Below are positions 11,607 to 63,957 of a stretch of 64,000 nucleotides of DNA, in pieces. Below the pieces are notes generated by a model. The model had not been told where the DNA came from and ran no database searches. It was given only the letters and a program-made list of their open reading frames with translations. A program made the position numbers and the translations under genes. Every line of letters begins with the position of its first letter. Positions within the stretch are counted from its first letter, which is position 1. Source of the DNA: Victivallis vadensis (GTDB taxonomy: Bacteria; Verrucomicrobiota; Lentisphaeria; Victivallales; Victivallaceae); NCBI RefSeq assembly GCF_003096415.1, contig NZ_QEKH01000006.1, positions 1-64,000 on the forward strand, in the 5' to 3' direction.

Positions 11607-12441
11607 CCGGGATTTCGCCCTTTGGGCGACCAAGGCGCTTCGCCCTTGGAACCAGACCGGCAAGGTGCCGGTGCCGAATACTTGAGATCCGGGAAAGGCG
11701 TTTCGCCTTTCCCTCCGGGTGGGGGAGCTCTGATGGAGACAGGCATGGTTGTACAGGAGCGGCACACCGCTCCGGTCGGCGACCGCGTCGGCTTTTTTGC
11801 CCGGAATGACGAGTACGGCGAAGCCGCACGGAGGAGTGGAGGGAGGGGCCCCCGAAAAGTACCCGCAGCTTTTGGGCAAAGCCCAAAAGTCCCGAGGCCC
11901 GTGGCCGAAGGGAGGCAACTTTTTGGGGAAGAGGGCACTCCCTGCGCCTGCTGCCGCCGGAGGTCACGCTCGGAACCTCCAGATGCTGACCGGGAAATAG
12001 AAAGATACCCTGATGGAAGCTGATAAGAATTTATCTGCCGATATACGCAAAGCGAGGTCAGGCAACAATGCAATTGTCATATCACAGACAAGCATATCTT
12101 TGAGTACGAGCCTTACTGAACCTTGCCTGCATGATAGAGACAGGCAGAGTTCAGCCTCCATGAGTGTAACTTCACATCATCCGGTCAGCATCTGGAGGTT
12201 CCGAGCGTGACCTCCGGCGGCAGCAGGCGCAGGGAGTGCCCGGCGTCGGCAAAAAAGCCGACGCGGTCGCCGACCGGAGCGGTGTGCCGCTCCTGTACCC
12301 GCTTGCCTGTCCACAGTAGAGCCTCCCCCACCCGGAGGGAAAGGCGAAACGCCTTTCCCGGATCTCAAGTATTCGGCACCGGCACCTTGCCGGTCGGGTT
12401 CCAAGGGCGAAGCGCCTTGGTCGCCGAAGGCGAAATCCCGG
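11607..12441. repeat. Element E1: long inverted-repeat hairpin element, copy 1 (with E4)
   Basis: A non-coding element between the convergent ends of pflA and the GH106-like gene. Its outer 13 bases are perfect inverted repeats (CCGGGATTTCGCC at 11607, complement ending 12441). Arms of about 250 bases are inverted copies of each other and consist of small hairpins, for example GGGAAAGGCG-TTT-CGCCTTTCCC (11691-11713) and CGTCGGC-AAAAAA-GCCGACG (12244-12263). A core at about 12004-12180 is about 88% identical by eye to that of E4. The left arm carries an extra block of about 131 bases (11802-11932). Open frames inside it are by-products of the repeats. It could be a structured RNA, a bidirectional terminator region or a non-autonomous mobile element. 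Confidence 0.8.
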
Positions 12442-16735: not shown

Positions 16736-17098
16736 AGCCAATAAACTGATAGACACAGCCCAAAGCGAGTCGTGTAAAAAAAGCCTGCCGTTGTAAATCC
16801 GTCCGCCCTGTCGGGCGGCAGACCTTGTGCGCTGCGCGGCCTGATTTGCAATCGCATCTCCGGCAGCCGGGCGCTACGCGCACAAAGTGTCTTCGACGAC
16901 AAGGGCACTTCGTCCTTTGACCCCGATCGGGTAGCCTCCGGTGGCAAGTACTGCCGATAGAGCCAATAAACTCATAGATAATAACCCCGGTTTTGAGATT
17001 TTTGCGCAGTAAAAAGCTCGAAACCGCACCCGGCGCCGGCCCCTTGCCAGTCGGGGGGGACCGGGAGGTGAAGCGCCCCCGGCCGCCGGAGGCATGCA
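16736..17098 (+). repeat. Element E2: hairpin repeat, family B
   Basis: A non-coding element between the convergent araC-type gene and mntP. Blocks shared with E3 and with the reverse of E5 are, in order: a GC-rich hairpin, 'GCAGACC', a long stem (TTGTGCGC...GCGCACAA) enclosing 'GCCTGATTT', a GTCT-CGACG block, a GG(G)CA-hairpin, an 'AGATAATAACCCC' block and the terminal CCGCCGGAGGCA. A short direct repeat (AGCCAATAAACT) occurs at about 16736 and 16960. It is more diverged than E3 or E5, and some stems are imperfect. Confidence 0.7.
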
Positions 17099-17099
17099 G

Positions 17100-17705
17100 T
17101 TACCACGGCAGGAGTTCCAGGTGTTCCAGCAGGATTTTAACGCCGATCAGGATGATTGCGCTGCCGCCGACGATCATCATCACCCGTTCGCCCGCCAGCA
17201 TTCCGATCCGGGTGCCGAGCAGCACTCCCGCAATTGAAGCCGCCGCCGTAACCACTCCCATCGCCAGCGCCGGCAGCCAGATGCCGGTTCCGGCAAAGGC
17301 CAGCCCTGCCCCGACCGCCAGCGCATCCAGGCTGGTCGCGACCGCCGGAACCACCAGCGCCTTCGGTGCGAAGAAGTCCGGCGGGCAGTTCAGACACGGA
17401 GAACCGTCCCCGTTCTTTTCCGGCTCTTTTTCGGCAATCGCCTCATAGATCATCTTGCCGCCCACCAGCCCGAGCAGGACAAAGGCAAGCCAGTGATCCA
17501 CCGACGCGACCACTGACTGAAGCATCGTGGCCGCGAAGAAACCGATCACCGGCATAATAATCTGGAATCCGCCGAAAAAAAGAGCCGCCCACGCGGCATT
17601 GCGCAGGCGGCGTCCGGTGCGGTCGCACAATGCGCCGCCGATGGAAACGGCGAGCGCATCGATCGACACGCTCACCGCGATCAGCAGAACTTCGACAACG
17701 GACAT
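17100..17705 (-). CDS. mntP: Putative manganese efflux pump MntP
   Basis: A 201-residue inner-membrane protein with six hydrophobic segments. Both halves carry the diagnostic acidic motif of the family: 'VSVSIDALAVSIG' near residue 14 and 'ATSLDALAVGAGL' near 122, whose aspartates are implicated in Mn(II) export. A Cys-Pro rich loop ('CLNCPPDF') lies between the halves. AGGAG precedes the ATG. It starts 7 bases after argF, so it is probably transcribed with argD-argF. No Mn-responsive yybP-ykoY riboswitch can precede it because of that coupling. Confidence 0.9.
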   Translation of the reverse strand: MSVVEVLLIAVSVSIDALAVSIGGALCDRTGRRLRNAAWAALFFGGFQIIMPVIGFFAATMLQSVVASVDHWLAFVLLGLVGGKMIYEAIAEKEPEKNGDGSPCLNCPPDFFAPKALVVPAVATSLDALAVGAGLAFAGTGIWLPALAMGVVTAAASIAGVLLGTRIGMLAGERVMMIVGGSAIILIGVKILLEHLELLPW

Positions 17706-20694: not shown

Positions 20695-21004
20695 CTTGCC
20701 GCTTACGGCAAGCGGGTCTGCTTGCCCTGACGGACAGCAGACCTCCGTGGGCTCACGGCCTGATTTTCAATCAGGCACCTGAGCTGGGCGTTTCGCCCAC
20801 GGAATGTCTCCGACGGGCAAGGCGCTTCGCCCTTGCAACCCGACCGGCGACGTGCCGGTGCGGTAAACCGTCCATAGAATAGACTTATAGATAATAACCC
20901 CGTTTTAGAGATTTTTGCACAGCAAAAATCTCTAAAACGTACCCGGCGCCGGCACCTTGCCGGTCTGGGGTCCCGGGGGCGAAGCGCCCCGGGCCGCCGG
21001 AGGC
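20695..21004 (+). repeat. Element E3: hairpin repeat, family B
   Basis: A non-coding element filling the pgi-rsmE gap. It contains TTGCCG-CTTA-CGGCAA (about 20698), GGTCTGCT...AGCAGACC, a 9-bp stem TCCGTGGGC...GCCCACGGA that encloses GCCTGATT-TTC-AATCAGGC, then a CAAGG-type hairpin, ACCGGC-N5-GCCGGT, a long TTTTAGAGATTTTTG...CAAAAATCTCTAAAA hairpin (about 20911-20938), a GGCGAAGCGCC hairpin and the terminal CCGCCGGAGGCA. The 9-bp stem aligns with a different but equally complementary stem in E5. Open frames here are repeat artefacts. Confidence 0.75.
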
Positions 21005-21007
21005 AGG

Positions 21008-22579
21008 TTACTTGACGGTATAGTACCAGGCGTTCGCCATCGTGCAGAATTCACGAGTCACGTGCGGGCAGTTCGCCGCGGCCTTGTCGAGCAGCCCGCC
21101 GATTTCGACGGCCTGATCGGGTTCGCCGACCTTGGCCGCAATCTCCTCGGCGGTGCCGGAAACGCCTTTCAGCTCGGCGATCTTCTTCATCAGCGTTTCG
21201 CGCAGCGTCAGGATGCCCTTCGCCGCCAGCTTGTAGGCCTGCACGCCGGGCTGGTGGAACGCGTTGATGTTGATGAATTCAGCGTAAACCGCGACCGCGC
21301 GCTCGTAGAGGGCGATCACCATGCCGAGAGTGCGCTCGTTGACCTCCGGGATGCGGATCGTGATGATCTGGCGCCCCTTGCCGCGCAGCGCGGCGCTGAG
21401 TCCTTCAAGGAAGCCGTGCAGGTAGTTGCCCATCGTATTGGCGTCGGTGATCGGCAGGCGTTTCGCATCCTTCATCACTTCAATGAAAGTCGCAAAGAAG
21501 TCGTCGCGGCCATCGTTGAGCTGCTGGATAAAGGCGTGGGCGTCAGTGCCGCCCTTGTTGCCGAAGACGTTCAGCCCCTGATGGACCTCCTTGCCGTCGA
21601 GGTCGAGCGCCTTGCCGAGGCTCTCCATCACCAGCTGCTGCATATAACGCGACAGCAGGATCAGCCGGTCGGAGTAAGGCACGATCACCATATTGCGGTC
21701 GCCCCTGCCGTTGCCGGCGATATACCACATCGCGGCGAGCATCATCGCCGGATTCTTACGCGGATCGGCGGTGCGGGTCCACTCGTCCATTTTACAGGCG
21801 CCTTCGAGGAACGCCTTGAAGTCCACCCCGGTCAGCGCGGCGGGAAGATGGCCGACGATGCTGGTTTCGCTGGTGCGCCCGCCGATGGATTCGGCCATTT
21901 CGAAAACCGCGAGGAAGCCGGTTTCATGGGCGTGTTTGTCAAGTTCGCTGCCTTTCATCGTGATCGCGGCGGCGTGCTTCGCGAAGGAGAGTCCCTTTTC
22001 GGCGTAGAACTTCTCCATGGAGATCATGTTGTTCTTGGTCTCCTGGGTGCCGCCGGATTTGGAGATCACCAGATGCAGCGTGGCCGCCGGATCCATCACT
22101 TCAAGCAGGTCGGCGAATTCGGCCGAATCGGTGTTGTCGAGGAAGTAAATCTTCAAATAGCCGTTGCGCTGCGCGTCGGATTTCTCGTTCCAGTAGGGGC
22201 CGTTGATCGCGAACTGCATCAGCTGCGGGCCGAGCGCGGAGCCGCCGATGCCGTTGACCACGACCGCGTCGAACTTCCTGCCGGTTTCGCCGGTGATTTT
22301 ACCGGTGCGGACCTTTTCGGCAAACTCCTCGACGGAGGCGAAAAGCGCGCTTTTCGGATACTCGATGCGGTCGGAAAAGTGGGTGACCTTGCGGTTTTCA
22401 TCCGGGTTCTTGACCGCTCCGGCTTCAAGGCGGGCCATTTCTCTGGCGGCGCGCTCGAATTTCGGCGCGAGCTTGTCGAGGTCGGCGTCGGTGAATTTCA
22501 TCCCGGCGAAAGCGATGGAGAAGTTGTCGGCCGCGTCGACCAGCGTATAGGCGCGGTTGCGTTCGATCCAGTTGTTCAT
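21008..22579 (-). CDS. pgi: Glucose-6-phosphate isomerase
   Basis: Interconverts glucose-6-phosphate and fructose-6-phosphate in glycolysis and gluconeogenesis. It has 523 residues. PGI motifs include 'VVNGIGGSALGPQLMQ' near 145, 'VISKSGGTQETKNN' near 210, 'GRTSETSIVGHLP' near 265 and a C-terminal 'INAFHQPGVQAYK' that carries the catalytic Lys/His region. GGAG lies 10 bases upstream of the ATG. It follows the DUF815-like ATPase gene by 29 bases. Confidence 0.94.
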   Translation of the reverse strand: MNNWIERNRAYTLVDAADNFSIAFAGMKFTDADLDKLAPKFERAAREMARLEAGAVKNPDENRKVTHFSDRIEYPKSALFASVEEFAEKVRTGKITGETGRKFDAVVVNGIGGSALGPQLMQFAINGPYWNEKSDAQRNGYLKIYFLDNTDSAEFADLLEVMDPAATLHLVISKSGGTQETKNNMISMEKFYAEKGLSFAKHAAAITMKGSELDKHAHETGFLAVFEMAESIGGRTSETSIVGHLPAALTGVDFKAFLEGACKMDEWTRTADPRKNPAMMLAAMWYIAGNGRGDRNMVIVPYSDRLILLSRYMQQLVMESLGKALDLDGKEVHQGLNVFGNKGGTDAHAFIQQLNDGRDDFFATFIEVMKDAKRLPITDANTMGNYLHGFLEGLSAALRGKGRQIITIRIPEVNERTLGMVIALYERAVAVYAEFININAFHQPGVQAYKLAAKGILTLRETLMKKIAELKGVSGTAEEIAAKVGEPDQAVEIGGLLDKAAANCPHVTREFCTMANAWYYTVK

Positions 22580-47967: not shown

Positions 47968-48825
47968 ATGAGTTATATTGATCTGCACACCCACAGCCGC
48001 TGTTCGGACGGCAGCTGCACCCCCGCCGAACTCGTGGAACTGGCCGTCGCGGCCGGCCTCAAAGCCGCCGCCCTGACCGACCACGACACCGTCGCCGGTC
48101 TCGCTGAATTCCGCGAAGCCGCCGCGCGGCACCCGGAATTTGAAGCGATCGGCGGCGTCGAAATCTCCACAATGTTCAGCAGCCGCGAGCTGCATATCGT
48201 CGGCCTCTGGGTCGACGGCGGCAGTCCGGTGCTGAATGAATTTCTGGAGGAGATGCGGCGCAACCGCGCCAAGCGCAACGAAGCGATCCGGCTCAAGCTC
48301 AACTCCCTCGGCTACGTGGTCACCTGGGACGATCCGGAATTCGCGGCCTTCAGCGACACCGCCTCCATCGGCCGCCCCCATTTCGCCCGGGTCCTGATGC
48401 GCAAATATCAGTTTTCCAGCCTGCAAAGCGTATTCGACAAGCTCCTGAAACGCAACAGTCCGGCTTATGTTCCCCGCGAACTGCCCGATCCCGTCCGCGC
48501 GATCGATGTGATCCATGCCGCCGGCGGCGTCGCCGTCTGGGCGCATCCGATCTACCGCGAACGCAACGAACGCGCCTGGGCACGCCGGATCATGAAGCGG
48601 TTCGCCCCGCTCGGACTGGATGCAATCGAGGCCTATTACAGCATGTTCGGCCCCGAAGAAACCAGAATGCTGACCGAACTGGCCGGAACTTACAACCTCG
48701 CCCTCTCCGGCGGCAGCGACTACCACGGCGAGAATTCCCCGAATCTCTCCATCGGCACCGGCCACGGCGGGCTGCACGTTCCCGCCGAGCTGCTGTCGGA
48801 ACTCCGCCGCCGCCGTCCCCTCTAA
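47968..48825 (+). CDS. PHP-domain phosphoesterase (YciV/TrpH, RNase AM-like)
   Basis: A 285-residue metal-dependent phosphoesterase. 'YIDLHTHSRCSDGSCTP' is the first metal site of the PHP fold, 'LTDHDTVAGL' the second, 'GGVEISTMFSSRELHIVG' follows, and the last site is 'GSDYHGEN'. YciV of E. coli (RNase AM) removes nucleotides 5' to 3' and matures rRNA 5' ends; other relatives hydrolyse AMP-type compounds. The ATG at 47968 is chosen because a promoter lies within the longer frame starting at 47857. Element E4 begins 13 bases after the stop. Confidence 0.88.
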   Translation: MSYIDLHTHSRCSDGSCTPAELVELAVAAGLKAAALTDHDTVAGLAEFREAAARHPEFEAIGGVEISTMFSSRELHIVGLWVDGGSPVLNEFLEEMRRNRAKRNEAIRLKLNSLGYVVTWDDPEFAAFSDTASIGRPHFARVLMRKYQFSSLQSVFDKLLKRNSPAYVPRELPDPVRAIDVIHAAGGVAVWAHPIYRERNERAWARRIMKRFAPLGLDAIEAYYSMFGPEETRMLTELAGTYNLALSGGSDYHGENSPNLSIGTGHGGLHVPAELLSELRRRRPL

Positions 48826-48838
48826 TGTGATGCCCGAT

Positions 48839-49544
48839 CCGGTATTTCGCCTTCGGCGACCAAGGCGCTTCGCCCTTGGAACCCGACCGGCAAGGTGCCG
48901 GTGCCGAATACTTCAGATCCGGGAAAACCGTTCCGGTTTCCCCTCCGGACGGGGGAGGCTCCGGTAGAGACAGGCATGGTTGTACAGGAGCGGCACACCG
49001 CTCCGGTCGGCGCAAAGCCTGCTTTTTTGCAGGCTTTAGGCACTCCCTGCGCCTGCTGCCGCCGGAGGTCACGCGCGGAACCTCCAGATGCTGATCGGGT
49101 AATAGACAGATACTCTGCTGGAGGCTGATAAGAGTTTATCTGCCGATATACGCAAAGCGAGGTCAGGCAACAATACAATTGCCATATCACAGGCAAGCAT
49201 ATCTTTGAGTACGAGCCTTATTGAACCTTGCCTGTATGAAAAGGCGTGGAGAGTTCAGCCTCCATCAGAGTAACTTCACATCAGATGGTCAGCATCTGGC
49301 CGTTCCGCGCGTGACCTCCGGCGGCAGCAGGCGCAGGGAGTGCCCGGCGTCGGCAAAAAAGCCGATGCGGTCGCCGACCGGAGCAGTGTGCCGCTCCTGT
49401 ACAATCTTGCCTGTCTCCATCAGGGCTCCCCCGCCCGGAGGGGAAACCGGAACGGTTTTCCCGGCTCTCAAGTATCCGGCACCGGCACCTTGCCGGTCGG
49501 GTTCCAAGGGCGAAGCGCCTTGGTCGCCGAAGGCGAAATCCCGA
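48839..49544. repeat. Element E4: long inverted-repeat hairpin element, copy 2 (with E1)
   Basis: A non-coding element between the convergent ends of the PHP gene and argA. Ends are CCGGTATTTCGCC and GGCGAAATCCCGA (12 of 13 complementary). The left arm (to about 49096) and right arm (from about 49286) are near-perfect inverted copies of about 255 bases; a core of about 190 bases between them is shared with E1. Stems differ between copies but stay paired: AAAGCCTGC-T6-GCAGGCTTT (49014-49037) against CGTCGGC-A6-GCCGATG (49348-49367), and TTGCC/GGCAA (49179-49196) where E1 has TTGTC/GACAA. It lacks the extra block of E1. No coding capacity. Confidence 0.82.
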
Positions 49545-49547
49545 ATG

Positions 49548-50027
49548 CTAGAGGCGGGTGTCGTATTCGACGAGCATGGCGGTTTCGTCGCAGCAGGCCT
49601 GCTTGGGGCACTTGGAGCAGTCGCTCCAGATTTTTTCCGGAAACAGAGTGCGGTCGACGATCGCGAAACCGAGCGCCTTGAAGAATTCCACCTGATAGGT
49701 GAGGGTGAAGAGCCGCCAGTGGTTGCGGCGGATTTTGAGTCCGGCGATGATGGCTTCGATCATCGCGCGGCCGATGCCTTTGCCCTGAAAGCCGGGTTCG
49801 ACGACGAGGGAGCGGACTTCGAGCAGGTCGTTGCCGAAGTCGCGCACGGCGGCGCAGCCGCGTACGACGCCGTCGATTTCGGCGACCACGAAGTTGCCGA
49901 GGTAGAACCGGATATCTTCTTCGCTGCGGCTGAGGACGATAGCCTTGGCAGCGTAAATTTCAAGCAGCCGGAAGATCGTTTTCACGTCGCTTTCGACCGC
50001 TTCGCGAACCGTCAGAAGGTTTTTCAC
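49548..50027 (-). CDS. Short ArgA-type N-acetyltransferase (GNAT)
   Basis: A 159-residue GNAT protein, probably the short N-acetylglutamate synthase that starts arginine biosynthesis. 'EVRSLVVEPGFQGKGIGRAMIEAII' is the acetyl-CoA binding motif A. The C-terminal 'FPEKIWSDCSKCPKQACCDETAM', with five cysteines, is characteristic of this ArgA type. It begins with GTG directly abutting the accA stop codon, so it depends on accA transcription. argD and argF, about 30 kb away, would use its product. Confidence 0.82.
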   Translation of the reverse strand: MKNLLTVREAVESDVKTIFRLLEIYAAKAIVLSRSEEDIRFYLGNFVVAEIDGVVRGCAAVRDFGNDLLEVRSLVVEPGFQGKGIGRAMIEAIIAGLKIRRNHWRLFTLTYQVEFFKALGFAIVDRTLFPEKIWSDCSKCPKQACCDETAMLVEYDTRL

Positions 50028-61489: not shown

Positions 61490-61536
61490 ACACAACATAT
61501 AGCAATCAGTGATTGCAGGGACACAATATATAGTGA
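61490..61536. promoter_or_regulatory. Tandem NrdR boxes upstream of nrdD
   Basis: ACACAACATATAGCAA (61490-61505) and ACACAATATATAGTGA (61521-61536) match the NrdR box consensus (about ACACWATATATWGTGT). The box starts are 31 bases apart, about three helical turns, as in known NrdR-regulated promoters. NrdR, an ATP/dATP-sensing repressor, should therefore control this operon. The nrdR gene is not in the window. Confidence 0.88.
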
Positions 61537-61544
61537 CAGGGAAA

Positions 61545-63707
61545 ATGAAGATTGTAAAGAGAAGCGGTGCGGAGGAAGAGTTCTCCGTCGCGAAAATTCT
61601 GGCTGCCGTGACAAAGGCCAACCAGACTGTGGAATTCAAGAACGCGTTGACTGCGCAGCAGATAGAGGCGATCGGCGAGTATGTCTCCGGCATCTGCAAG
61701 GCGCTCGACCGGGCGTTGTCGGTCGAGGAGATTCAGGATATCGTCGAGACCCGGATCATGCAGGAGGGCGCTTTTGAAGTCGCCAAGAAGTACATCACCT
61801 ACCGGTATGTGCGCAACCTGATCCGGCAGGCCAACACCACCGACAACCAGATCCTGAGCCTGATCGAGTGCAACAACGAGGAGGTCAAGCAGGAGAATTC
61901 CAACAAGAATCCGACCATCAACAGCGTTCAGCGCGACTACATGGCCGGCGAAGTCTCCAAGGACATCACCCGGCGGCTGCTGCTGCCGCCGGAGATCGTC
62001 GAAGCGCACGAGCAGGGATTGATCCACTTCCACGACATGGACTACTTCGCGCAGCACATGCACAACTGCGATCTGGTCAACCTGGAGGATATGCTGCAGA
62101 ACGGCACCGTGATCTCCGGCACGCAGATCGAGAAGCCGCACAGCTTTTCGACCGCCTGCAACATCGCCACGCAGATCATCGCGCAGGTCGCCAGCAACCA
62201 GTACGGCGGGCAGAGCATCACGCTGACCCATCTCGCGCCGTTCGTTCAGGTGTCGCGCAGCCGCATCCGCACCGAAGTGCTGGAGGAGTTTGAACTCGCC
62301 GGGGCGGCGGTCAGCGAGGAGCGGCTCAACGCGATCGTGGAAAAGCGTGTGCGTGACGAGGTCGCCCGCGGCGTGCAGACCATCCAGTACCAGGTCGTCA
62401 CGCTGATGACCACCAACGGGCAGGCTCCGTTCGTGACCGTTTTCATGTACCTGAACGAAGCGAAGAGCGAGCAGGAGAAAAAGGATCTCGCGATCATCAT
62501 CGAGGAGGTGCTCAAGCAGCGCTATCAGGGGGTCAAGAACGAGGCGGGCATCTATATCACTCCAGCCTTCCCGAAACTGATCTACGTGCTCGAAGAGGAT
62601 AACGTCGACGAAAGCGGCGAATACTACTACCTGACCCGGCAGGCGGCGAAATGCACCGCGAAACGGCTGGTGCCGGACTACATCAGCGAAAAGAAGATGA
62701 AGGAGCTGAAAGAGGGCAACTGCTTCCCGGTGATGGGCTGCCGCTCCGCCCTGACGCCGTGGCGCGACGCCAACGGCAACTACAAGTTCTACGGGCGTTT
62801 CAATCAGGGCGTGGTCACGCTGAATCTGGTGGATATCGCGCTGTCGAGCGAAAGGGATATGGACCGCTTCTGGAAGATCTTCGACGAACGGCTCGCCCTC
62901 TGCTACAAGGCGCTGATGTGCCGCCACAACCGGCTCAAGGGGACGCTTTCGGATGCGGCTCCGATCCTGTGGCAGTACGGCGCGATCGCCCGGCTCAAGA
63001 AAGGCGAGCCGATCGATCCGTTGCTGTACAACGGATATTCGACGATTTCGCTGGGGTACGCGGGGCTTTGCGAATGCGTCCGCTACCTGACCGGCAGGAG
63101 CCACACCGATCCCGAAGCCACTCCGCTGGCGATCCGGATCATGGAGCATATGAACGCCGCCTGCAACCGCTGGAAGAAAGAGACCACCATCGGCTTCGGC
63201 ATCTACGGCACTCCGCTGGAGTCGACGACCTACAAATTCGCCCGCTGCCTGCAGAAGCGGTTCGGGATCATCCCCGGCGTCACCGACCGGAACTACATCA
63301 CCAACAGCTATCACGTCCACGTGTCGGAAAAGATCGACGCTTTCGACAAACTCGCATTCGAAGCGAAGTTCCAGTCGCTCTCCTCCGGCGGCGCGATCAG
63401 CTATGTAGAAGTGCCGAACATGCAGAACAACATCGAAGCGGTGCTTCAGGTGATCCGCTTCATCTACGACAACATCATGTACGCCGAGCTGAACACCAAG
63501 AGCGACTACTGTCAGGAGTGCGGCTTCGACGGCGAAATCGAGATTGTCAAAGATGAATCCGGCAAACTGATCTGGCGCTGCCCGAAGTGCGGCAACACCG
63601 ACCAGAGCAAGATGAACGTCGCCCGCCGCACCTGCGGCTACATCGGCACGCAGTTCTGGAACCAGGGGCGCACCCAGGAGATCCGCGACCGCGTGATGCA
63701 CCTGTAG
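61545..63707 (+). CDS. nrdD: Anaerobic ribonucleoside-triphosphate reductase (class III)
   Basis: An oxygen-sensitive glycyl-radical enzyme that makes dNTPs from NTPs with formate as reductant. It has 720 residues from the ATG at 61545 (AGGGA just upstream). An ATP-cone (about 1-90, 'KIVKRSGAEEEFSVAKILAAV') gives allosteric control. Catalytic-domain text includes 'HFHDMDYFAQHMHNCDL'. The C-terminal zinc ribbon 'CQECGFDG...CPKCGNTD' and the radical glycine G698 in 'RRTCGYIGTQFW' complete it. The longer frame from the GTG at 61509 would run through the second NrdR box and is rejected. The activase gene probably starts at 63986. Confidence 0.96.
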   Translation: MKIVKRSGAEEEFSVAKILAAVTKANQTVEFKNALTAQQIEAIGEYVSGICKALDRALSVEEIQDIVETRIMQEGAFEVAKKYITYRYVRNLIRQANTTDNQILSLIECNNEEVKQENSNKNPTINSVQRDYMAGEVSKDITRRLLLPPEIVEAHEQGLIHFHDMDYFAQHMHNCDLVNLEDMLQNGTVISGTQIEKPHSFSTACNIATQIIAQVASNQYGGQSITLTHLAPFVQVSRSRIRTEVLEEFELAGAAVSEERLNAIVEKRVRDEVARGVQTIQYQVVTLMTTNGQAPFVTVFMYLNEAKSEQEKKDLAIIIEEVLKQRYQGVKNEAGIYITPAFPKLIYVLEEDNVDESGEYYYLTRQAAKCTAKRLVPDYISEKKMKELKEGNCFPVMGCRSALTPWRDANGNYKFYGRFNQGVVTLNLVDIALSSERDMDRFWKIFDERLALCYKALMCRHNRLKGTLSDAAPILWQYGAIARLKKGEPIDPLLYNGYSTISLGYAGLCECVRYLTGRSHTDPEATPLAIRIMEHMNAACNRWKKETTIGFGIYGTPLESTTYKFARCLQKRFGIIPGVTDRNYITNSYHVHVSEKIDAFDKLAFEAKFQSLSSGGAISYVEVPNMQNNIEAVLQVIRFIYDNIMYAELNTKSDYCQECGFDGEIEIVKDESGKLIWRCPKCGNTDQSKMNVARRTCGYIGTQFWNQGRTQEIRDRVMHL

Positions 63708-63712
63708 GATAC

Positions 63713-63957
63713 GCTGCCTCCGGCGGCCGGGGTATTATCTGTCAGTTAATTTGCTCTACCGGCGGTATGCGCCACCGGGTGCTACCCGGTCGGGTTGCAA
63801 GGCGAAGCGCCTTGCCCGTCGGAGACAGTTGTGCGCTATGCGCCCAGCTACCGGAGCCTGATTGAAAATCAGGCCGCGTAGCGCACAAGGTCTGAAGGCC
63901 GCAGGCCGTAAGACCCGCCTGCCGCGAATGCGGCATGGCTTCCCCCGGCAGATATGA
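63713..63957 (-). repeat. Element E5: hairpin repeat, family B, between nrdD and probable nrdG
   Basis: A reverse-orientation relative of E2 and E3. It starts with TGCCTCCGGCGG (complement of the family's terminal CCGCCGGAGGCA). Read on the minus strand it has GCCGC-ATTC-GCGGC, GGTCT...AGACC, the 9-bp stem TTGTGCGCT/AGCGCACAA around GCCTGATT-TTC-AATCAGGC, the CAAGGCG hairpin, ACCGGGT-AGC-ACCCGGT and AGATAATACCCC. It lies inside the likely nrdD-nrdG transcript, so it would be present as RNA. Confidence 0.75.

Follow-up and report, generated by a model that had tools for sequence, protein, structure and literature searches.

Between two convergent genes of Victivallis vadensis lies a non-coding inverted-repeat element of about 700 bp, here called E4, in which hairpins at equivalent positions are built from different stems around the same loop, both between its two arms and in comparison with a second copy, E1. 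Are such compensated changes a sign that pairing itself is selected, or are whole hairpins passed between copies as cassettes? Both copies lie in the window, i.e. the whole stretch of 64,000 nucleotides of contig NZ_QEKH01000006.1 that was analysed. The host is a Victivallis-like bacterium whose best accA relatives belong to uncultured Victivallis spp., at 84-85% protein identity. All hairpins which the original prediction named for E4 and E1 are present at the positions it gave. The G-U pair it assigned to the right arm of E4 applies to the + strand; read inward from the adjacent gene, however, the same position is an A.C mismatch.

The element, its copies and its outer module

The features of the window to which we refer are listed here with coordinates and strand.

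48841-49542, no strand: E4, non-coding inverted-repeat element of ~700 bp between convergent genes
48841-48907, + strand: outer module H1-H2-H3 of the E4 left arm, match to model R1
49476-49542, - strand: outer module H1-H2-H3 of the E4 right arm, match to model R1
48921-48943, + strand: H4 hairpin of the E4 left arm, stem type GGGAAAACCG..CGGTTTCCC
49440-49462, - strand: H4 hairpin of the E4 right arm, stem type GGGAAAACCG
48987-49004, + strand: H6 hairpin of the E4 left arm, GGAGCGG-CACA-CCGCTCC
49014-49037, + strand: H7 hairpin of the E4 left arm, AAAGCCTGC-T6-GCAGGCTTT, the left hairpin of the original prediction
49348-49367, - strand: H7 hairpin of the E4 right arm, type B, CGTCGGC-A6-GCCGATG, with one mismatch
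49095-49288, no strand: centre of E4, holding the unit 49154-49237
11609-12439, no strand: E1, the other copy in the window, with a pflA-like gene (+) on one side and a gene on the - strand on the other
11691-11713: H4 of E1, stem GGGAAAGGCG/CGCCTTTCCC
11801-11933, no strand: insert of ~125 bp in place of the 3' half of H7, E1 left arm
12244-12263, - strand: H7 hairpin of the E1 right arm, type B, CGTCGGC-A6-GCCGACG
16881-17101, no strand: E2, short inverted pair of the outer module with a different centre, in a convergent-gene gap
20801-21012, no strand: E3, short inverted outer-module pair with an E2-like centre

With E4 as the query, the genome yielded 105 matches which were assembled into 35 near-complete copies including E1 and E4, contig-end fragments and remnants (C51, C64, C4, C6:144916 and C15:84147) being excluded from this count. 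Each copy consists of two inverted arms of ~255 bp flanking a centre of ~195 bp, whose central unit is duplicated in seven of the 35 copies. From the adjacent gene inward an arm carries the hairpins H1, H2, H3, H4, H6 and H7; a candidate H5 proved to have no stem when the arms were checked. The stem of H1 occurs as CGCC, CGCTCC, CGCTGC, CGCCC or CACTCC, that of H2 in three types (CCAAGG, GCAGGG and CAAGGG) and that of H4 in two (GGGAAAGGCG and GGGAAAACCG). H3, with its AGG loop, has the same sequence in 69 of 69 arms, and the CACA loop of H6 is invariant in all 69 arms which contain the full hairpin. Within the arm alignment, columns 128-145 form an 18-nt block of linked variable sites between H4 and H6 in which no hairpin is obvious. 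In the flanks of several copies (L003, L024, L032, L034, L035 and others) a motif of ~25 bp resembling ACGCCGTGTGCAAGTTTCYTGAACC lengthens the inverted repeat outward; allowing up to three mismatches, it has 40 matches genome-wide, several of them close to contig ends.

A protein-coding element was rejected, as our own codon model, which was trained on the window and is not a published gene caller, calls no gene inside 34 of the 35 copies; the exception is L012, whose truncated end is overlapped by a predicted ORF. Likewise rejected was a known RNA family, since Rfam 15 gave no gathering-score match to the element in the window and, among six copies searched, a single sub-threshold match located outside the element. 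The predicted fold of E4 reaches -580 kcal/mol (z -40 against dinucleotide shuffles, with none of 20 shuffles as low), most of which is due to the long inverted repeat and not to the local hairpins.

The outer module, three hairpins within 67 bp, is far more widespread than the element. This genome contains at least 150 matches to it, and it is present in 21 of the 194 genomes of a phylum sample, this genome counted. A blastn search with E4 found matches in 14 of 61 genomes, again including this one, nearly all confined to the outer ~70 bp, while the centre is present in one of the 61, namely this genome. Collections of genome contigs and viral contigs, which may lack entries for this genome or for one very close to it, gave no match to the centre pattern. 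Where modules stand alone, they are arranged in inverted pairs or in larger arrays (+-, -+-, +-+-) and frequently follow a stop codon by a few bp. Their context was assessed in 40 regions chosen among the best of the at least 150 matches, using 73 of 75 module matches; the two omitted ones are weak and overlap or adjoin stronger ones. Of 42 such shorter arrays, 24 lie between codirectional genes, eight between convergent and one between divergent genes, six over a called ORF, and three are unclassified. In the window, E2 and E3 share a centre with a long A/T-rich hairpin which differs from that of E4 and E1, and a further match to the outer module is seen on the - strand at 63769-63834, 61 bp past the predicted gene 61509-63707.

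Pairing and proposed exchange at the level of single hairpins

The conspicuous hairpin is H7, whose hypervariable stem encloses a T6 loop of locked polarity, a combination that is new relative to known REPs. Among 69 arms its 5' stem half reads AAGCCTGC in 21, GCGTCGGC in 21, AAGCCCGC in 12, GAGCCGAT in six and GAGCCTGC in three, and the stem of type B is unrelated in sequence to those of the A types. The 8-bp stem is nevertheless perfect in 63 of the 69 arms; four of the remaining six carry an insert and two a single mismatch, so that 63 of the 65 insert-free arms are perfectly paired. The loop is exactly T6 in 68 of 69 arms and inverted to A6 in none. What appears as A6 on the + strand in the right arm of E4 is T6 when read inward from the adjacent gene. 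Per-column diversity accordingly amounts to 0.334 in the H7 stem, the highest among the stems, and to 0.005 in its loop; for the stem and loop of H3 and for the loop of H6 it is 0.000.

These stem types are distributed over the arms almost freely. Comparing left and right arms in 33 of the 35 copies (L012 and L027 were left out), the H7 type is equal in 11 (9.5 expected), the H6 form in 19 (17.3 expected) and the H4 stem in 20 (16.3 expected). Assortment is not fully free, however, because H1 (21 copies, 14.0 expected), H2 (25, 17.6 expected) and the H4 loop (12, 5.3 expected) agree between arms above expectation. The two commonest H7 types are found in 16 and 6 left arms and in 5 and 15 right arms, respectively (Fisher p 0.005). 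The H7 type of an arm recurs in its nearest neighbour arm in 12 of 62 cases (16.2 by chance). Linkage was evaluated in 65 of 70 arms (all but L012r, L027l, L017r, L018l and L025l). The mean r2 within hairpins ranges from 0.37 to 0.94, and linkage across features falls to near the shuffled level beyond ~30 bp. For H7 and sites outside it r2 is 0.007-0.009 (shuffled mean 0.016), values in which hitch-hiking at shorter range would be invisible because the closest sites that carry information are ~12 nt away on the inner side and ~25 nt away on the outer side. Since the arm types are nearly independent and linkage is absent 12-25 nt away, H7 acts like a short cassette open to exchange. The ~125-bp insert at H7 points directly to exchange, as the same insert is common to four arms of three copies, occupying both arms in one of them. 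Sequences related to it also stand alone elsewhere, at C37:31700 of genome G000 and at C9:91670-92116, where three copies are spaced 178 bp apart.

Pairing was followed beyond this genome in an alignment of 26 outer-module sequences, of which this genome contributed 12 and relatives 14. Across genera 97.4% of the cells are paired (88.9 when shuffled), both sides have changed at 11 of 20 pairs (4.3 when shuffled), and the covariation score is reached by none of 500 shuffles and is lost when the partner is slid. Taken alone, the number of further pair types in the outer module stays within the range of the shuffles (207 of 500), and for the hairpins of the centre covariation does not exceed shuffles.

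Both halves of the original prediction thus find support: discrete stem types, near-free assortment of H7 between arms and missing linkage to its flanks speak for cassettes, and for pairing the two stem sides change together in this genome and the outer module covaries across genera. A loss of pairing in most copies, which would have refuted the prediction, was not seen. The claim went too far in taking compensated changes as proof of selection. Template switching can create perfect hairpins, compensatory changes and loop inversions, according to passages of PMC8794818, and the loops of H4 bear its footprint: eight of nine loop types fall into reverse-complement pairs (TTC/GAA, TTT/AAA, GCA/TGC and TAC/GTA), compared with a mean of 1.1 in random sets, one of 20000 of which is as extreme. 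Double changes on their own are hence no proof of selection.

The paired stems might then be a mere mutational by-product of template switching within hairpins, with no selection for folding at all. Besides the H4 loops and the published precedent for perfect hairpins and loop inversions in the passages cited, this would agree with the mismatches, of which, counted as distinct kinds on the sense strand, seven are G.T, 11 A.C and 11 other; as G.T is not favoured over A.C, a signature of the RNA strand is not found. We nonetheless regard this explanation as unlikely. Switching inside a hairpin cannot turn an H7 of type A into type B because they have no stem sequence in common, T6 never became A6 and H3 and the H6 loop stayed fixed, and the outer module is both paired and conserved across genera. 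Part of the pairing can arise by mutation, as exemplified by loop inversion at H4, but the unconvertible H7 types and the loop polarity kept outside H4 argue for selection on loop and fold. It could alternatively be the long fold-back, a structural RNA rod of 700 nt, which is kept. The strongly negative predicted folding energy given above fits such a rod, as does the arm identity of 87.4% within copies compared to 85.3% between copies, a value matched by one of 5000 permutations. The excess similarity is, however, found mainly in the outer 110 columns, and in 22 of 33 copies the two arms differ in H7 type, close to the number predicted by chance. Because the arms often disagree there while the local hairpins stay intact, what H7 conserves is not the fold-back, which was rejected as the conserved unit; a rod of this kind appears very improbable.

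Going beyond exchange as such, H7 could be imagined as a site-specific slot for hairpin-sized cassettes, in which five stems, partly related or unrelated to one another, are swapped between the ~70 sites of a genome as tracts shorter than ~60 bp. The process would cleave extruded hairpins and repair them with a patch taken from another copy, T6 being read by a protein or RNA partner. We consider this scenario decidedly speculative and, as a whole, improbable.

Position at gene ends, mobility and proposed role

The copies show a pronounced preference for tail-to-tail genes: 24 of the 35 lie between convergent, six between codirectional and two between divergent genes, and three are unclassified. 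Compared with neighbouring gene pairs from the window and twenty 20-kb stretches, of which 30 of 282 are convergent, the 24 of 32 classifiable copies correspond to an odds ratio of 25 (Fisher p 1e-14). In these 24 gaps the element lies at a median of 11 bp from the stop codon on each side, and the non-element sequence that is left has a median length of 22 bp, compared to a median length of 101 bp in 28 other convergent gaps. At the locus orthologous to that of E4 an empty site was not encountered, a match to the PHP gene beside the GNAT gene being absent in eight other genomes of the genus. Behind the orthologous GNAT gene of one genome (G005, L154) a tandem array of ~270-bp module-bearing units is observed.

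This placement invites the explanation that the element itself serves tail-to-tail genes as a bidirectional transcription terminator or insulator, and that their need for one has caused it to spread and to be kept. The convergent position of 24 of 32 copies favours it, and the median of 22 bp leaves no room for another terminator; moreover, T6 would always be transcribed as U6 from the nearer gene. Yet this U6 is part of a loop and does not follow a stem, and 10 of 30 background convergent gaps are shorter than 35 bp and element-free. A terminator scan of 48700-49700 returned four sites (mean of shuffles 1.0): the centre contains two and the GNAT gene one, and a weak one overlaps the right-arm H7; apart from this weak, G-T-containing match it detected no standard intrinsic terminator in the arms of E4. 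An element defined by termination is therefore conceivable, although we would rather doubt it. Somewhat less probable still is a remnant of a MITE-type transposon, whose terminal inverted repeats were moved by a trans-acting transposase; the hairpins would then be the sites of this enzyme and convergent gaps the places where insertion is best tolerated. Precise ends, terminal inverted repeats, dispersed copies and an outer module shared with relatives are what one would expect of it, and Y1 transposases (PF01797) occur in 35 of the 61 genomes searched. This genome, however, has no PF01797 match, the same search being positive in five of 14 control genomes, and relatives bearing the module can lack the transposase as well (G014, G026, G031 and G033). 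Nor do any of 34 copies (L012 was left out) share a direct repeat of at least 6 bp at their ends at offsets 0-8. A MITE with target duplication and a RAYT-driven REP in this genome were both rejected.

We therefore favour the view that the element is probably a large, BIME/REPIN-like mosaic of palindromic units at gene 3' ends, which mostly fills convergent gaps. Its two inverted arms, strings of hairpins each opening with the widespread H1-H2-H3, are situated directly past the stop codons. Copies may exchange short tracts by recombination, which would make each hairpin its own exchange unit, and selection would maintain the folding of the hairpins and, for H3, H6 and H7, loop and polarity as well, with template-switch correction possibly helping pairing to recover. 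The element may act at the 3' ends of both transcripts, likely in protecting RNA ends, in slowing or stopping the polymerase or in insulating tail-to-tail genes from each other; a role at the DNA level, the capture of a supercoiling enzyme, would be an alternative.

Comparison with known palindromic repeats

The significance of this family lies in the fact that ~70 arms in one genome let hairpin folding, loop sequence and recombination history be told apart. Selection on the fold, mutation by template switching and cassette exchange each leave a visible footprint of their own, and the question of whether compensatory changes in repeated hairpins prove function becomes testable. Among the literature matches listed there is no report of such repeats for Victivallis (palindromic) or Lentisphaerae (repetitive extragenic palindromic).

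RNA hairpins kept by template switching, as treated in passages of Monttinen and Loytynoja 2022 (PMC8794818), show the same multi-base compensatory changes and loop inversions; theirs reside in RNA genes, whereas here dispersed repeats are concerned which exchange unrelated stems at H7. With REPINs the element has in common that two inverted REP-like units act as one, and compensatory changes are described as common in REPINs in a passage of PMC3116915. It differs in the lack of a RAYT/Y1 transposase in the genome and in measuring 700 bp instead of being a short doublet. For tagged REP superfamilies, subfamilies with alternative complementary stem residues are described in sections of PMC3733652, which also place convergent REPs of P. 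entomophila and S. wittichi mostly at distances under 20 bp from where both flanking ORFs end (3' ends). With its alternative complementary stems and its convergent placement the present element repeats features already reported for REPs. The GTAG and CGTC tags of those superfamilies are missing, being found near the module ends in three and one of 69 arms, respectively. As both defining features were tested for and neither was found, we do not class the element as a RAYT-linked REPIN or a GTAG/CGTC REP.

The closest resemblance is to BIMEs and REPs as portrayed in PMC1525189 and PMC2817692, i.e. to high-copy intergenic palindromic units of alternating orientation with other motifs between them, located 3' of genes and in convergent gaps. 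Compared with a BIME, the present element is ~700 bp in size and composed of a three-hairpin unit of 67 bp, further hairpins and a centre of ~195 bp, with no GTAG/CGTC tag. New are its size, the hypervariable stem with its polarity-locked T6 and exchange at the scale of single hairpins; a Victivallis-like bacterium hereby adds an oversized BIME-like repeat which prefers tail-to-tail genes and dispenses with the usual tags and transposase.
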